Shown one piece after another: positions 1 through 11,319 of a stretch of DNA of 32,609 bases. Where the stretch lies: positions 1-32,609 of the forward strand of contig JAJDZI010000086.1 in NCBI GenBank assembly GCA_022824735.1, given 5' to 3'. This stretch comes from Nitrospirales bacterium. Its GTDB lineage: Bacteria > Nitrospirota > Nitrospiria > Nitrospirales > UBA8639. A model generated the notes under the pieces. The model saw only the letters and a program-made list of their open reading frames with translations, had not been told where the DNA came from and did not search any database. The position numbers and the translations under genes were made by a program. Position 1 is the first letter of the stretch, and every line of letters begins with the position of its first letter.

Positions 1-549
1 GCGCGCCATGACGGCGGCGATGCCGAGACCGGCTTCGGGGTGGAACTGGGCGGCGGGGTGGCCTGGAATGCCCCAGACGTGGGCTTGGCGCTGAATCTGG
101 AGGGGCGGACGCTGCTGGCGCACCGGGATGACGACTTCCGGGATCAAGGCGTGGCCGCCGCCTTTACCTTTGACCCCGACCCGGCCAGTCCACGGGGCCC
201 ATCGCTGAGCCTCCGTCAGGATTGGGGCGGCCGGGCGACCGGCGGCCTGGCTGCGTTGTTTGCGGCAGACCCGCCGGCGCAACGCCAAGGCGCGGCAGGC
301 GCCCCGGCCATGAGCCGCTGGGGGGCAGAGGCGGCCTGGGGCTTCCCGGCCTTTGGCGGCGCGTTCACCGGCAGCCCGCACGTGGGCCTGGGGCTGGGTC
401 AAAGGAGCCGGAACTATACCCTAGGCTGGCGTCTGGCACCGGCCACGGCTGCGTCGGCGCTGACGCTGGATCTCCAAACCACGCGCCAGGAATTCGACGG
501 GGGCCAGCCGGTCCACAACGTCGGGCTGGAAATCACGACCCAGTGGTGA
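1..549 (+). CDS. C-terminal fragment of an autotransporter/outer-membrane beta-barrel-like repeat protein (5' truncated by window edge)
   Basis: Frame 1 is open from base 1 (RHDGGDAETGFGVELGGGVAW...) to TGA at 547-549; alternating aromatic/Gly-rich strands end in 'NVGLEITTQW', typical of a barrel terminus. Confidence 0.6.
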   Translation, partial: ARHDGGDAETGFGVELGGGVAWNAPDVGLALNLEGRTLLAHRDDDFRDQGVAAAFTFDPDPASPRGPSLSLRQDWGGRATGGLAALFAADPPAQRQGAAGAPAMSRWGAEAAWGFPAFGGAFTGSPHVGLGLGQRSRNYTLGWRLAPATAASALTLDLQTTRQEFDGGQPVHNVGLEITTQW

Positions 550-678: not shown

Positions 679-720
679 CCAGTGGCCGTCACGTGTCCAT
701 TTCGTAGCATCATGATGGCC

Positions 721-1683
721 TTACCGCCTAGTGATCTTTGGACCGACATAGACTACGTAAACCGGCTTGCCGAACTCTATGGGCCAGGAGAAATGCAGGC
801 GAAGTGTCAGGTGTTTCTCCTTGCCGTGCCATGGACAAAACAAAGACTCTCCGGCGACGTTTGGATGGGGAAATGTCAACTGATTGCGGAAACTTGATTT
901 CTCGTCATCCGACGAGTCGGAGAACAGCGCGGTATAACCGCCCGTGAAGTGTTTTTGATAAATCTGATGGCCTTCCGGAGTGCGCCCGCCATTCTCGTCG
1001 AATTCGCGCGCGAGTTGGTCCAGTATACCGAGCAAAACAACGATGCGATCTGCTGTGCTCTGGACAAAAGGAAGCCCTTGAAGAGGCTCAAAGCAATCAC
1101 CAGAGAAGGTCAGATGCATGAAACGTCTAGTAGAAGTTTCTCGTAATTTGTCCCATGACTTGATCTTGGGTGCTTCGATGCGAAGCTTTTCTTCCAGTGT
1201 GACTTCATCGCGCCAGTTGTCTACATGCGTATGCTGGTCTTCTAAGCCTTCGTCCTCCCGGCGCCATATTACCTCCGCGGGCGAGTAATCCCAATCGGAC
1301 GGAGTGATGCTGACCAGACCGCATTCAACGCTATGAAACGTTCGAAATGCGGCTTCACCAACCGCGGAATCCGTAACTATCTCGCCTCGGCATTCCAAGT
1401 ATGCATTTTCAGCATGCTGTCGCAAATCTTCCCAGAACGGACCGTGACGCGTGAGCCATCCCATTGCGGCTCGGCGTTCGTCGTTAGTCAGTTGCCCAAG
1501 AGTCTGTTGCATCGTCATATGCGGCATCGGATTGCGGTTCAGAAGCGCACGATGGCAATGCAACTCCAGTCCGAAGCGTTGGGCTACGCTACGCATGGTC
1601 ATCAGCCGCGCTAGAGCATCGCGAAACGCCGATTTTTCACGAAACTGGCCGTGGATTGACAAATCATTGACCAGGAAATCCAA
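721..1683 (-). CDS. Uncharacterised 320-aa protein, third gene of a DUF262/DUF3696 ATPase operon (putative defence component, possibly NsnA-like)
   Basis: Uninterrupted ORF with TTG start 3 nt after the ATPase TGA (TGA-TCT-TTG); no family recognised; C-terminus LTLRLHFSWPIEFGKPVYVVYVGPKITRR. Confidence 0.75.
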   Translation of the reverse strand: MDFLVNDLSIHGQFREKSAFRDALARLMTMRSVAQRFGLELHCHRALLNRNPMPHMTMQQTLGQLTNDERRAAMGWLTRHGPFWEDLRQHAENAYLECRGEIVTDSAVGEAAFRTFHSVECGLVSITPSDWDYSPAEVIWRREDEGLEDQHTHVDNWRDEVTLEEKLRIEAPKIKSWDKLRETSTRRFMHLTFSGDCFEPLQGLPFVQSTADRIVVLLGILDQLAREFDENGGRTPEGHQIYQKHFTGGYTALFSDSSDDEKSSFRNQLTFPHPNVAGESLFCPWHGKEKHLTLRLHFSWPIEFGKPVYVVYVGPKITRR

Positions 1684-1686
1684 AGA

Positions 1687-2886
1687 TCAACTCCAGCCAG
1701 CAAAGTAATTCATGTCTTTGTCGAACTGGTCGAAAAATCCTTCCGGCCAACTGTCGATGTTTCCATGGGTATCTAGGATTGGACTTTGGACCTGAGAAGT
1801 GCTGCTCGGTTGATCTTCTCGTCTCATTTGGAAAAAGTGCAAGGCGACATCATCGGCAGGTAGCGTTCGGTTTTTGATAGTCCGTCTGATGCCGTTCAAC
1901 ACGTGGTCGCTGTGTGTTTCAATCACAACCTGCACGCCCGCTGCCGCGACTTGGGCCAAGAATTCACCCATCATCGCCTGCCCGGCAGGATGCATATGCA
2001 CTTCAGGGTTCTCGATCAGAAGTAAATCTTCTTTATTTGCAACTAGGGCGGCCACTACGATGGGAAGAACCTGCGTCAGTCCAAATCCTGTATGAATAGG
2101 CCGGTGGAAATCCGTATCGGTGGACATGCGAATCCCTAATGTCACAGCATTGGCGTGACGGACTTGATTAGTCTCCAACACACAATCCGGGAAAAAACGC
2201 GCCATGCGTGCCTCTACTTGCCGGAACAGAGTAGGCGGTACGTCCTGAACCACGAGGCTATCCACCACATGGGTGTCACGCCTCGAGTGAAGAATGCTGA
2301 TGGCGTATTCTCCTCTTGGGCCAACGACGGGCGTGAGTTGAGGATCGTCAAATAAGTAATATTCGCGCGGCCCTAGCCGCTCAGCCGTTAAGTAAGTGAG
2401 CCCGCACATGCGTTTGGCCAACGAATCAGCTAGCAGTACACTTGGTGGCTTGTCACTCGATTGTGTCAGCACACCATGTGGCAATAAGTGGCGAAACGGC
2501 TGAGTTCTATCAATCTCTATGGACAAGGCTATTTCGTTGGTAGGACCACTGAAGCGCCTCAGTTCCATGGACATCTCGTCGCGTTCACCTTCAAATTCCC
2601 ATTGAAATCGAGCTGTATCGCTGTCCAACAACGCAATCGTACAGGACTGGCGTCCATGGACTTTATCAATCACGTCGCCTACGGTGCCAAGTCGCACTAC
2701 ACTGCCATTGAGCAGCAAGCGCATCGACCATTCATGTTCGCGCATAGTCTGATGCAGAAGAACGAGCGCGTGCAGTACTGACGATTTTCCAGAGGCATTG
2801 ACGCCGGACAGCAAGGTTAGTGGGCGTAGTGGAAGCTTCAATGATTCAAAGCATTTAAAATGCTGTAGGTCTATCCGCGTGAGCAC
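1687..2886 (-). CDS. AAA family (OLD/ABC-like) ATPase with DUF3696-like C-terminus
   Basis: Walker A GVNASGKSS; Walker B LLLIENPEVHMHP; ETHSDH motif; C-terminal GFFDQFDKDMNYF. GTG start overlaps the upstream gene by 32 bp. Confidence 0.88.
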   Translation of the reverse strand: MLTRIDLQHFKCFESLKLPLRPLTLLSGVNASGKSSVLHALVLLHQTMREHEWSMRLLLNGSVVRLGTVGDVIDKVHGRQSCTIALLDSDTARFQWEFEGERDEMSMELRRFSGPTNEIALSIEIDRTQPFRHLLPHGVLTQSSDKPPSVLLADSLAKRMCGLTYLTAERLGPREYYLFDDPQLTPVVGPRGEYAISILHSRRDTHVVDSLVVQDVPPTLFRQVEARMARFFPDCVLETNQVRHANAVTLGIRMSTDTDFHRPIHTGFGLTQVLPIVVAALVANKEDLLLIENPEVHMHPAGQAMMGEFLAQVAAAGVQVVIETHSDHVLNGIRRTIKNRTLPADDVALHFFQMRREDQPSSTSQVQSPILDTHGNIDSWPEGFFDQFDKDMNYFAGWS

Positions 2887-3976
2887 CCAGAACCCCCTCT
2901 AAAGTTTTTCGGACCATCTCAAAGCGGTACTTTACTCGTCTGGTATCGCTTGTGCCATAGGTGATCGCGGCATTGAACTCTTCATCTTCAAGTAGCTTAT
3001 AAAGAGTTTGGCGGAGCAGTTCGGCGTGCTCTTCTACAAGGCGTTCGGGGTAATACGACAACCCGGTGCTCATCACGTCCCAAAGGGATGCATTGAGAAC
3101 GCTCCGCCGGTCTTGTCCGGCCTCGTGCTTTCTGAACGCATGCTTGCCGAACAGCGTGAAATTATTGATAAGGCTTCTGCGAAATTCCGCAGACAAGCGC
3201 TTCAACTTAGATTCGTCCATCTTGTTCATTTGACGCAGACATTCGGCAAGGAACTCATCCATGTCGCCGCGATATTCATCAATCCCAAGCAGTTGAAATG
3301 CACAAAATCGATTGACGAACTCCTTGTCGCGCATTGACTTATAATTCAAACTCTCGCCTGTTGCCTCAAGAAATATATCGGTTTTCGCTTCATCTTTCAG
3401 GAAGCGGGTTGCCGGCCCCATAAAGAGGCAGTTGCGCATCTGCTGACGCGTAAGCGGTACGCCGCCATTCACCCTCTCGAAAATGTCCAGACGAGCACGT
3501 TCCGGCGCCTTCGAGTCGATGATGTAGAAAATGAGATTGCTATCTTCGATGCGGTTCCGAAGCTTAGGCGAAAGGTCAGAGAATTTTTTGCCGTCGAGTT
3601 CGTCGCGCCCCGGGAGTTGCAGCTTCAGATTGCCATCAACAAACTGTGTGAATGTGGACAGGCGCTGTAATCCGTCCACGACCACCATTCTTCCTTCGTC
3701 ATCTTCAGCCATGTAGAAAACCGGCAAAGGTATCCGCATGATCACAGATTCGATGAGCTTGCTTTGCTTGTCTTCGGGCCAAATGAAATCGCGCTGAAAG
3801 TCCGGATCCATCACGTAGTTTCCTTGATGAATCCGCCGGATGACGTCGTGAATCGTTCGATTTTCGTTCCGGATCAGGAGATCGTCGATTGGGTAGTCTC
3901 CCCAAGACGCATCCTCGGTATCCAGGCCTTCAATTTCTTCGTCCTTGGTCGGCAGTTCGGAAAGTTGAGCTTCCAT
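2855..3976 (-). CDS. DUF262 (GmrSD N-terminal/ParB-like nuclease fold) protein without an obvious C-terminal HNH (DUF1524) domain
   Basis: DPDFQRDFIWPEDKQSKLIESVIMRIPLPVFY...VVVDGLQRLSTFTQF is the DUF262 signature (DGxQR). ATG at 3976 with GGAG upstream; the ORF can extend to TTG at 4108. Confidence 0.88.
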   Translation of the reverse strand: MEAQLSELPTKDEEIEGLDTEDASWGDYPIDDLLIRNENRTIHDVIRRIHQGNYVMDPDFQRDFIWPEDKQSKLIESVIMRIPLPVFYMAEDDEGRMVVVDGLQRLSTFTQFVDGNLKLQLPGRDELDGKKFSDLSPKLRNRIEDSNLIFYIIDSKAPERARLDIFERVNGGVPLTRQQMRNCLFMGPATRFLKDEAKTDIFLEATGESLNYKSMRDKEFVNRFCAFQLLGIDEYRGDMDEFLAECLRQMNKMDESKLKRLSAEFRRSLINNFTLFGKHAFRKHEAGQDRRSVLNASLWDVMSTGLSYYPERLVEEHAELLRQTLYKLLEDEEFNAAITYGTSDTRRVKYRFEMVRKTLEGVLGAHADRPTAF

Positions 3977-4433
3977 GGTGTTGTTGCTCCGTGTTATCTG
4001 CATATACCGATTGATCTGTCCGTTTATAGTTTCGGCTTGTTCAGAGATAACCTCTGCGAAGTGGCAACAGACGGGGTACTTATGGTATATCGCCGGTGGC
4101 CAAATCAATAGGCCGGTATTGCCCTAGCTTGCACGATGAACTCCTGAAACGCTGCGATGCTATGGTCCTTAAGGAAATGCCGAGTCTTTTGCTGCAGATC
4201 ATGAAATATTACCATAGTCAACCTTCCGGCATCCGTCAATGTTGATGGTGGCACATGCACGGTCCGTCACCGTCGTTCTTGGCCTCTTCGAAAATCAGAT
4301 AATCTGGGGGCAGTGAATCGAGGCTCGGGCCATTTCCTTTCAATCAGCCGATGGTCAACCTTTCATATAGCCGTACCAAAACCTTACAATCAGCCGATAA
4401 ATGATCGTGTCTGCTCTTATGGTGCTTCCTTCT

Positions 4434-4494
4434 CCAAGCGGCCTCTCCGGGCCGCATGAGATGCGGCAGCTACAAATGCGTAGAGGCCGCTTGG
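4434..4494. repeat. Nested inverted repeat: outer 13-bp perfect arms CCAAGCGGCCTCT/AGAGGCCGCTTGG, inner GCCGCAT-gag-ATGCGGC
   Basis: Arms read directly at 4434-4446 / 4482-4494 and 4451-4457 / 4461-4467. Confidence 0.85.
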
Positions 4495-7537: not shown

Positions 7538-7682
7538 GGATGGCCCTGTGGTTTTGCCCTGCCTCTGTTGCCTGAGACGGGCCCCTTCTTTTTCCAAACC
7601 ATTGCCTTTCTCGATATAGTGCTCCCGACGTGTGCGCGAATTACGTTCGCATTCCGCGCGGCTCGAATCCCCGAAGAAGGAA

Positions 7683-7811
7683 GACGCATGGATCTCGTAC
7701 TCCCCGATAAACGCTCACGCATTGGAACGGACCTCAGACGCCTGCTTGACCCGGCCAAGGTCAAGGACGACGTGTCCACCTTGCGTGCGTATGCGGTCGA
7801 TGCCAGCATCT
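7683..7811 (+). pseudogene. Truncated 5' duplicate of the FAD/Fe-S oxidase gene
   Basis: MDLVLPDKRSRIGTDLRRLLDPAKVKDDVSTLRAYAVDASI matches the start of the intact gene at 8479 at constant offset (791 bp), ~90% nt identity over 129 bp, then diverges. Confidence 0.85.
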
Positions 7812-7939: not shown

Positions 7940-8137
7940 ATGGCAACGGCTAAGAGCGAAGCGCTGGAGATGATTCAAAATCTTCCTGACGATATAACGA
8001 CTGGCGTGATCATGGAGGAACTGTTTTTTAAGCAGCAGGTGGAGAAGGGGCTTCAAGATGTCGCCGAAGGGCATGTGGTCAGCCATGAAGAATTAAAAGA
8101 AAGAATCGCTCGATGGCGAAACTCCGTTGGTCGCTGA
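7940..8137 (+). CDS. Putative antitoxin of a type II TA module
   Basis: 65-aa acidic protein, strong RBS (GAGGAGGAG), ...FFKQQVEKGLQDVAEGHVVSHEELKERIARW resembles RelB/Phd-like antitoxins; overlaps the toxin gene. Confidence 0.75.
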   Translation: MATAKSEALEMIQNLPDDITTGVIMEELFFKQQVEKGLQDVAEGHVVSHEELKERIARWRNSVGR

Positions 8138-8430
8138 CCGCCGGAAACGATCTGCGGGATATCGAAGATTTTATTGCGAGAGATTCTGTGCTGCACGCGG
8201 TCGCATTTGTCGATCGCATTCTCGAAACTGCCGAACGAGTCTTCAGCACACCCAATCTTGGTCGTATCGTTCCAGAGTTCAAGCGCGAAAACCTCCGAGA
8301 GGTCATTTTCAGAGGATATCGCATTGTCTATCTTCTCCGGAACGAGGAGATCATCATTCTTCGCGTCGTGCATGGTGCACGAGATTTGCGTGACCTTGTT
8401 CATCGGGAGCCGTGGGATATTTCTCCCTAG
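8113..8430 (+). CDS. RelE/ParE family toxin
   Basis: LRWSLTAGNDLRDIEDFIARDS...AVAFVDRILETAERVFSTPNLGRIVPEF...REVIFRGYRIVYLLRNEEIIILRVVHGARD is typical of ParE/RelE. Confidence 0.88.
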   Translation: MAKLRWSLTAGNDLRDIEDFIARDSVLHAVAFVDRILETAERVFSTPNLGRIVPEFKRENLREVIFRGYRIVYLLRNEEIIILRVVHGARDLRDLVHREPWDISP

Positions 8431-8478
8431 GTTAGTAAGGCTCATTCTTCCCGCAAGTGTTCGGAAGCAGCACGACGC

Positions 8479-11319
8479 ATGGACCTCGTACTCCCCGATA
8501 AACGCTCGAGCATCGGAACGGACCTCAGACGCCTGCTTTCCGCAACGAAGGTCAAGGACGACGTGTCCACCTTACGCGCGTATGCGGTCGATGCCAGCAT
8601 CTATCGTGTGGCGCCCCAAGTGGTGGTGCTCCCGGAACGTGAAACGGATATCGACCTGGTGCTGGACTACGCCGTCACCCGGGGCATTCCATTGACCGCG
8701 CGCGCGGCCGGCACCAACCTCACGGGATCGGCCATCGGGTCGGGCATCATTCTGGACGTGTCGCGTCTCAATCGAATCCTCGAAGTAAACCCCGAGGAGA
8801 AATGGGCGCGCGTGCAACCGGGCATCGTGCTCAACGAGTTGAATGCCCAACTGGCTGCCACCGGCCTCATGTTCGGTCCGGATCCATCCAGTGGCGACAT
8901 GTGCAAGTTGGGCGGGATGTTGGCCAACAATTCGTCGGGACCGCACACCCTGCGGTACGGGTCCGTCAAAGATAACGTGATGTCCATGCGGGTCAGGCTT
9001 GAATCTGGCGGGTGGCTGACTGCAGGCCGCGAGTCCTTGGACGGGGAAGGCGTCCCCCGGGCACTCGCGGGCTTCGAGGGGTTGCACAGGGTCTTTGACC
9101 TGGTGCGTGACAACCTGGATTTCATTCAAGCCAAACGCCCGCGCGTCAGCAAGAACAGCGCGGGGTACAACCTCTTTGACGTGGCTGAGAGCCTCACGCG
9201 CGGAGTCTTTGATCTGCCGAAGCTCTTTGTGGGGAGCGAAGGCACCTTGGGCGTGTTCAGTGAGGCGATGATCCGGCTCGTGGACCGCCCGCGTTCGACG
9301 GTGACCGGCATGATTCACTTTCGGGACCTTGAGGAAATGGGCGAAGCCGTGCATCACCTGTTGCGGCTGGACCCGTTGGCCCTGGAAGTCATGGATGCCA
9401 ACACGTTGGACCTGATCGGCCGGTCGCAGTACGGGATTCCCGGTGATGCCGCGGCAACCCTGCTCATCGAGTTTGATCGAGAGGGTGACCACGGAGGCAT
9501 TGCGCAACTGCGCGAGGCCTGCCGGTCATATCGTCTCTCCGGCGATCCCGTGATCGCGACCGATCCGGAACACCAACGGAATCTCTGGAAGGCCAGAAAA
9601 GCCCTCTATCCGACGCTATACCGGTACGACGCCAGAAAAAAGCCCATCAACTACGTCGATGACGTGGTTGTGGCCGCGGAACACATGGGCGAGTTGATTC
9701 GCTACCTGGACCGGGTCTTCGGTCCCGCGAAGGTCCGGGTAGCGATTTTCGGACATATCGGCAACGGCAATGCTCACGTCGTGCCGTTGTTGGACGTGAA
9801 TAACGAGCAGGATTTCCAGCGCATGGTGGACACGTATTATGAGGTCCACGACACGATTCTCGATCGGTTCAAGGGGTCCGTTTGCGGGGAGCACGGGGAC
9901 GGCCGCGTCCGCGCCGAAATGGTCAGGCGGATGTTCGGCGACGAGTTGTATGGTCTCTTCGTGCAGGTCAAACAGGCCATGGACCCGGCCGGGATTCTGA
10001 ACCCCGGCGTGAAAATCAGCGAGACCGCCTTTACCGAGCACATCGATTTTGAGCGGCTGGGAAAATCCTGCGCGACGTGTGCGAAATGCAACGCGGTTTG
10101 CCCCGTCTACGACGTCTTTCAATCCGAAGACATGAGTTCACGGGGATGGTATGAAATCGTGACTGCGCCGGATTACAGTTATTTGGAGTCCAAGCGCGTC
10201 GTGGAAGCATGTTTGAATTGCAAATCGTGCCGGACGGTCTGCCCGGCGGGGGTGGACGTATCCGAATTGATCCTGCAACGCCGGGCGGAACAGCCGAACG
10301 CCCTGGCCGGGAAAATTTTTGCCCTGCACGCGCAACAGGAGCGGTTCGGCACGTTGATCAAGATGGCTGCCAGAACGCAGGCGTTCTGGGACCGGCCGCT
10401 GGTCCGGAAAATCGGCGAAGTGTTCTTGCGACCGTTCCTGGCGCGTCTCTCCCAACGGGCCCGGCTGCCTTGGAACATGAAACTGCCGCGCCTGGCCGCG
10501 TCGTTGTTACGTGAACGGCATCATGCGCTGTGTGTGGCGTCTCCACCCTCACCCGGTGCAAGCGCCGACCAAACACGGGAAAGCGGCTCTTCGCCAAAGG
10601 TCGCCTATTTTCACGGATGCGCCGCCAACTACTTCGACGACGGCGTGGGCGACGCCGTGATCAACGTCCTGGCGCAATATGGAGTGACACCTGACCTGCC
10701 GCCGCAGCGATGTTCCGGGACACCCATTGAAACGTATGGGCATCGGGCCTTGGCCAAGGAAGGGGCCCGGTATAACGTCAACAACTTCGCCGGATATGAC
10801 GTGATCGTCACGGGGTGCGCGTCCTGTACCCTGGCGCTCAAGGATTATGCCAAGTTGTTTCAGGGTGAACCCGAAGAGCCACGAGCCAAGCGGGTTTCCC
10901 GCAACGTGAAGCACATCGCGGAATACGTCATGGAGTTGGATCCTCAACGCTCGAAACCGGCCGAATCGAACGGGACGCGCAAGGTCACGTACCATTCGTC
11001 CTGTCACCTGCGCGCTGCCGGCGTGACGTCCCAACCCCGGCAGTTGCTGGCAACGACCCCCGGCTTCGACTACGTCGAGATGCAGGATGCCGACCGTTGC
11101 GCGGGCGGGGCAGGCACCTACGTCGTGAAGGATTATGACACCGCTCAACGGATTTTCGAGCGGAAGCGCCGGGCGATCGAACGAAGCGGCGCGGAGATCG
11201 TGGCTACAAGTTGCCCGGCCTGCATGATTCAATTGAAAAACGGCTTGCCCGACGGCACGGCCGTCAAGCATATTGCCCAGGTCCTGGACGAATCGGCCAA
11301 GCATGTTCCTCTCCCTTGA
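8479..11319 (+). CDS. FAD-binding oxidase/dehydrogenase fused to 4Fe-4S and CCG domains (GlcD/D-lactate dehydrogenase-like)
   Basis: PCMH FAD domain (ARAAGTNLTGSAIGSGIILDVSRLNRI), VCGEHGDGRVRA, CATCAKCNAVCP and CLNCKSCRTVCP clusters, C-terminal CHLRAAG...DRCAGGAGTY. Confidence 0.92.
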   Translation: MDLVLPDKRSSIGTDLRRLLSATKVKDDVSTLRAYAVDASIYRVAPQVVVLPERETDIDLVLDYAVTRGIPLTARAAGTNLTGSAIGSGIILDVSRLNRILEVNPEEKWARVQPGIVLNELNAQLAATGLMFGPDPSSGDMCKLGGMLANNSSGPHTLRYGSVKDNVMSMRVRLESGGWLTAGRESLDGEGVPRALAGFEGLHRVFDLVRDNLDFIQAKRPRVSKNSAGYNLFDVAESLTRGVFDLPKLFVGSEGTLGVFSEAMIRLVDRPRSTVTGMIHFRDLEEMGEAVHHLLRLDPLALEVMDANTLDLIGRSQYGIPGDAAATLLIEFDREGDHGGIAQLREACRSYRLSGDPVIATDPEHQRNLWKARKALYPTLYRYDARKKPINYVDDVVVAAEHMGELIRYLDRVFGPAKVRVAIFGHIGNGNAHVVPLLDVNNEQDFQRMVDTYYEVHDTILDRFKGSVCGEHGDGRVRAEMVRRMFGDELYGLFVQVKQAMDPAGILNPGVKISETAFTEHIDFERLGKSCATCAKCNAVCPVYDVFQSEDMSSRGWYEIVTAPDYSYLESKRVVEACLNCKSCRTVCPAGVDVSELILQRRAEQPNALAGKIFALHAQQERFGTLIKMAARTQAFWDRPLVRKIGEVFLRPFLARLSQRARLPWNMKLPRLAASLLRERHHALCVASPPSPGASADQTRESGSSPKVAYFHGCAANYFDDGVGDAVINVLAQYGVTPDLPPQRCSGTPIETYGHRALAKEGARYNVNNFAGYDVIVTGCASCTLALKDYAKLFQGEPEEPRAKRVSRNVKHIAEYVMELDPQRSKPAESNGTRKVTYHSSCHLRAAGVTSQPRQLLATTPGFDYVEMQDADRCAGGAGTYVVKDYDTAQRIFERKRRAIERSGAEIVATSCPACMIQLKNGLPDGTAVKHIAQVLDESAKHVPLP

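Follow-up and report, generated by a model that had tools for sequence, protein, structure and literature searches.

A Menshen (NsnABC) anti-phage operon, very probably intact and spread by horizontal transfer, in a Nitrospirales genome

Menshen is a three-subunit anti-phage system (NsnA, NsnB and NsnC) that was reportedly described by Millman et al. in 2022, and its domain diversity is said to be the subject of a paper by Li et al. from 2025. One of its proteins has a DUF262 domain, which in GmrSD, BrxU and SspE binds and hydrolyses NTP and acts together with a DUF1524 nuclease (PMC10952713). Menshen is among the DUF262 systems that lack DUF1524, and according to a review its protection is abolished when the DUF262 gene is mutated or deleted (PMC10952713). 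We analysed a stretch of 32,609 nt (hereafter the window) from a Nitrospirales genome (contig JAJDZI010000086.1), of which three minus-strand ORFs (721–1683, 1687–2886 and 2855–4108) had been predicted to form such a system. After revision of one start codon, the genes were as follows.

2855–3976, minus strand: nsnA, 373 aa from the ATG at 3976; DUF262 (GmrSD_N) protein with a VDGLQR motif, recognized by Pfam and PADLOC
1687–2886, minus strand: nsnB, 399 aa, GTG start; ABC/OLD-type ATPase with DUF3696 at its C-terminus, recognized by Pfam and PADLOC
721–1683, minus strand: nsnC, 320 aa, TTG start; recognized by PADLOC only

The name Menshen, given in the original prediction, was confirmed for each subunit by a PADLOC model. 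The nsnA and nsnB products matched the NsnA model PDLC03877 (1.7e-118) and the NsnB model PDLC03878 (2.9e-105) near full length, and the nsnC product matched the NsnC model PDLC03896 (1e-115) over residues 1–320. The DUF262 and DUF3696 matches, which had been set beforehand as a test, were both found with Pfam: NsnA contained GmrSD_N (PF03235, 1.4e-23) and NsnB contained AAA_15 (1.9e-21) followed by DUF3696 (8.3e-17). No Pfam family was matched by NsnC. The ATPase had also been called OLD-like, which holds for the ATPase part of NsnB but not for a nuclease, as Pfam detected AAA and DUF3696 families only and no TOPRIM domain, the feature of OLD-family classes 1 and 2.

The tight coupling of the three ORFs was evident from their coordinates. 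The end of nsnA (2855) overlaps the GTG of nsnB (2886) by 32 bp, and 3 nt lie between the end of nsnB (1687) and the TTG of nsnC (1683). The same couplings were seen in a relative (L004), with an overlap of 17 bp and a gap of 3 nt. For nsnA, the TTG at 4108 (417 aa) taken as the start in the original prediction was replaced by the ATG at 3976 as the most likely one, because the DUF262 protein of L004 begins at the corresponding ATG.

All three subunits were present, adjacent in the order A-B-C on one strand and with intact ATP-/NTP-binding motifs. In NsnA, Asp101, Gly102, Leu103, Gln104 and Arg105 of VDGLQR were invariant in 11 of 11 aligned sequences, as were, in NsnB (also 11 of 11), the Walker A motif GxNAxGKS (Gly33, Lys34 and Ser35), Glu295 and the ETHSDH motif from Glu323 to His328. 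Comparison with the copy in another genome of the genus (G005) gave dN/dS values of 0.17 for nsnA, 0.15 for nsnB and 0.23 for nsnC. Each of the genes is intact and evolves under purifying selection, and with dN/dS at 0.15–0.23 nsnABC is maintained. Judged by its sequence, the three-gene block is almost certainly Menshen; positions 721–3976 (minus strand) very probably represent an intact, horizontally spread Menshen anti-phage operon, and this copy is predicted, with good probability, to work against phage. Menshen is an already described system, and what is new here is another copy of it, in a Nitrospirales host.

The effector of the system is not obvious, because neither a DUF1524 nor a TOPRIM domain was found; for the DUF1524 HNH nuclease, Pfam gave no match in NsnA, NsnB or NsnC. 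NsnB, as an ABC/OLD-type ATPase, could serve as scaffold and switch. NsnA, with its NTP-binding DUF262 domain and no nuclease partner domain, may help to sense the infection or to gate the response, and would form an NTP-driven switch together with NsnB. The C-terminal module of NsnC (His286, Lys288, Arg295, His297 and Tyr312) would then carry out a toxic or nucleic-acid-acting step, or bind the target, making the whole an NTP-gated three-part switch. We put forward this division of labour, with NsnB as the switch, NsnA as the sensor-regulator and the NsnC C-terminus as the active part, as a tentative proposal.

The role proposed for NsnC was derived from conservation alone. Two groups of motifs were recognized, NDLSxxGQ at the N-terminus and WHGK-x6-RLHFSWP-x10-YVGPK at the C-terminus; in the latter, His286, Lys288, Pro301, Tyr312 and Gly314 were present in 23 of 23 sequences, and Arg295 and His297 in 22 of 23. 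A profile search of the PDB with NsnC returned nothing significant, and neither did a fold comparison with the PDB using a model of its C-terminal part (pLDDT 72, moderate confidence). A full-length model built from seven sequences was poor (pLDDT 42) and was discarded. It is in our estimate unlikely that the C-terminal module would be a small catalytic domain of undescribed fold whose effector activity requires no metal and is gated by NsnA and NsnB. The alignment narrows the question of mechanism to a few near-invariant residues of the NsnC C-terminus, which are directly mutable.

The roles may also be reversed, with NsnC as the infection sensor, NsnB as the transducer and NsnA (DUF262 plus an uncharacterized C-terminal half) as the effector, a possible assignment that we hold to be nearly as likely as the one proposed. 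Sensors are often variable, and NsnC is the most variable subunit: the queries matched 14 different PADLOC models for NsnC but a single one for NsnA and a single one for NsnB, and nsnC had the highest dN/dS of the three genes. This variability would suit the sensor role no less than the effector role and is a point against the role proposed above for NsnC. The reversed assignment is at odds with the lack of a known nuclease domain in NsnA, and with the polar residues suited to catalysis at the NsnC C-terminus, which are kept in 22–23 of the 23 sequences.

From the C-terminal motif of NsnC, a RelE/HigB-like ribonuclease was suspected, which upon infection would cleave mRNA and lead to abortive growth arrest. 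Short strands follow one another in the module in a similar way, with lysine, arginine and histidine residues and a final Y-V-G-x-K, and HigB structures recurred among the non-significant fold matches. However, these matches had E-values of at least 1 and a TM score of ~0.22, NsnC had no Pfam toxin match, and profile–profile alignment against HigB and ParE alignments gave a probability of <1% compared with 51% for the HigB–ParE control. Kinship of the NsnC C-terminus with RelE, HigB or ParE was thus unsupported and was rejected as a candidate, and we regard such a ribonuclease as quite improbable.

The locus was then compared with other genomes. The NsnC family was found in 2/14 genomes of the genus, this one included, and in 6/296 genomes of the phylum. 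Menshen is therefore accessory in its genus, with a patchy distribution, and is not part of the core genome of its close relatives. In G005 the system is located at another site, upstream of a MutS2-like gene. DNA alignment with that locus covered window positions 690–4052 with 85% identity, and nothing else was aligned except a piece on the promoter side (4174–4256, 72% identity), which together gave the following extent.

690–4256, no strand: extent common to this locus and the Menshen locus of G005, by DNA alignment

This extent is likely to be the transferred unit. The block had been described as more AT-rich than its neighbours, which was borne out by a G+C content of 51% compared with 57–58% in the remainder of the contig, and by GC3 values of 0.54–0.58 compared with 0.64–0.75 in ten other genes of the window. 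The lowest-GC stretches of 3.26 kb in the contig fall inside the block.

A conserved three-gene neighbourhood, as expected of a genuine system, was found across unrelated bacteria and also on three plasmids and one phage contig. NsnA and NsnB precede NsnC in records of Nitrospirales, Dadabacteria, Methylococcaceae, Nitrosomonas and Spirochaetia, and the trio of DUF262, DUF3696 and hypothetical proteins recurs on plasmids of Crinalium, Cupriavidus and Gluconobacter, in the last of which it is flanked by two recombinase genes. An IMG/VR phage contig (L057:2683-5980) holds a complete Menshen between terminase and head-protein genes. It was found through the NsnB search only, NsnC itself giving no direct match in viral contigs and phage records. 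As the terminase and head genes adjoining the cassette matched their profiles only in part, the phage may be defective there, and the cassette may have been inserted into a defective prophage. The present analysis adds a well-supported Menshen copy for Nitrospirales, and its relatives, among them those on a phage contig and on three plasmids, show the spread of the PDLC03896-type NsnC. Two further loci looked like decayed Menshen: in one (L009:5865-7498), NsnA is followed directly by pieces of NsnC and no NsnB was found, and the other (L071) retains NsnC residues 112–319 alone.

The flanks of the block contained the following candidate features.

4211–4239, minus strand: candidate promoter TTGACG-17-TATGGT, found by a scan, ~235 bp upstream of the start codon (ATG) of nsnA
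636–678 (arms 636–655 and 659–678), no strand: inverted repeat downstream of nsnC, with 20-nt arms that are 90% complementary

Both hexamers of the candidate promoter and their 17-nt spacing are also present in G005. It is this conservation alone that speaks for the site, because matches of the scanner did not outnumber those in shuffled sequences. The hairpin repeats said to border the block are both real, one being the inverted repeat at 636–678, which could mark the end of transcription, and the other lying at 4434–4494 (arms 4434–4449 and 4479–4494). The right-hand hairpin belongs to the host site, since in a genome without Menshen at this site (G013) the DNA matches from window position 4278 onward. 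An exact-pattern search of the genome found the left-hand hairpin only once, and it was rejected as a repeated element. Neither hairpin is thus counted as the end of an element.

The pentapeptide-repeat gene flanking the block is present in 14/14 genomes of the genus, and several relatives have a peroxiredoxin gene directly upstream of it. In the present genome these two genes lie on different contigs, both of which end in other DNA that is inserted or repeated, with unrelated DNA after the peroxiredoxin gene on its contig, and the comparison gave no clean empty site. The interval preceding the pentapeptide gene looks variable, because G005 has a DUF4143/AAA_14 ATPase gene there (L050:8475-9833), where this genome has Menshen; it is possible that the interval is a variable spot. 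Beyond nsnC, positions 1–549 (plus strand) encode the C-terminal end of a protein family without a Pfam match. This family has several members in the present genome, and in the genus it is found in many copies and forms very long ORFs, which reach 13,364 aa in relatives. Elsewhere in the window, a small gene (7940–8137, plus strand) is followed by a ParE-type toxin gene (8113–8430, plus strand; PF05016, 3.9e-19). This pair is located between 139-nt direct repeats (7673–7811 and 8464–8602, 89% identical), the first of which duplicates the start of a gene at 8479 for a 946-aa FAD-oxidase/iron–sulphur protein.

The suggestion that the block is a mobile defence cassette was supported only indirectly. 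The patchy presence, the other site in G005, the lower G+C content and the relatives on plasmids and a phage contig are in favour of it, but no integrase, mobility gene or element ends were seen at this locus. That the genes might instead be a housekeeping or regulatory operon of the lineage, as their intactness and purifying selection would allow, is hardly credible, given that they are missing in 12/14 genomes of the genus, occupy different sites in the two carriers, have relatives on plasmids and a phage contig, and match a described defence system in all subunits.

Compared with known systems, the locus is closest to Menshen itself, to which all three subunits correspond near full length and with a like gene order and coupling. 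No structural difference was detected here; what sets this copy apart is its Nitrospirales host and its NsnC of type PDLC03896. GmrSD, BrxU and SspE have the DUF262 NTP-binding domain in common with NsnA, although they possess a DUF1524 HNH nuclease domain that is absent from NsnA, and their motif is DGQQR rather than the DGLQR of NsnA (PMC10952713). NsnA also matched PD-T4-2_A (1.1e-40), but far less well than the NsnA model, and the present locus differs from PD-T4-2 in having full-length NsnB and NsnC partners. Gabija, Septu, PARIS and the OLD ATPases share the ABC/OLD-type ATPase domain with NsnB, which was matched by the AriA, GajA and PtuA models. NsnB differs from them in its DUF3696 tail and the absence of TOPRIM, and the partner proteins are different as well.
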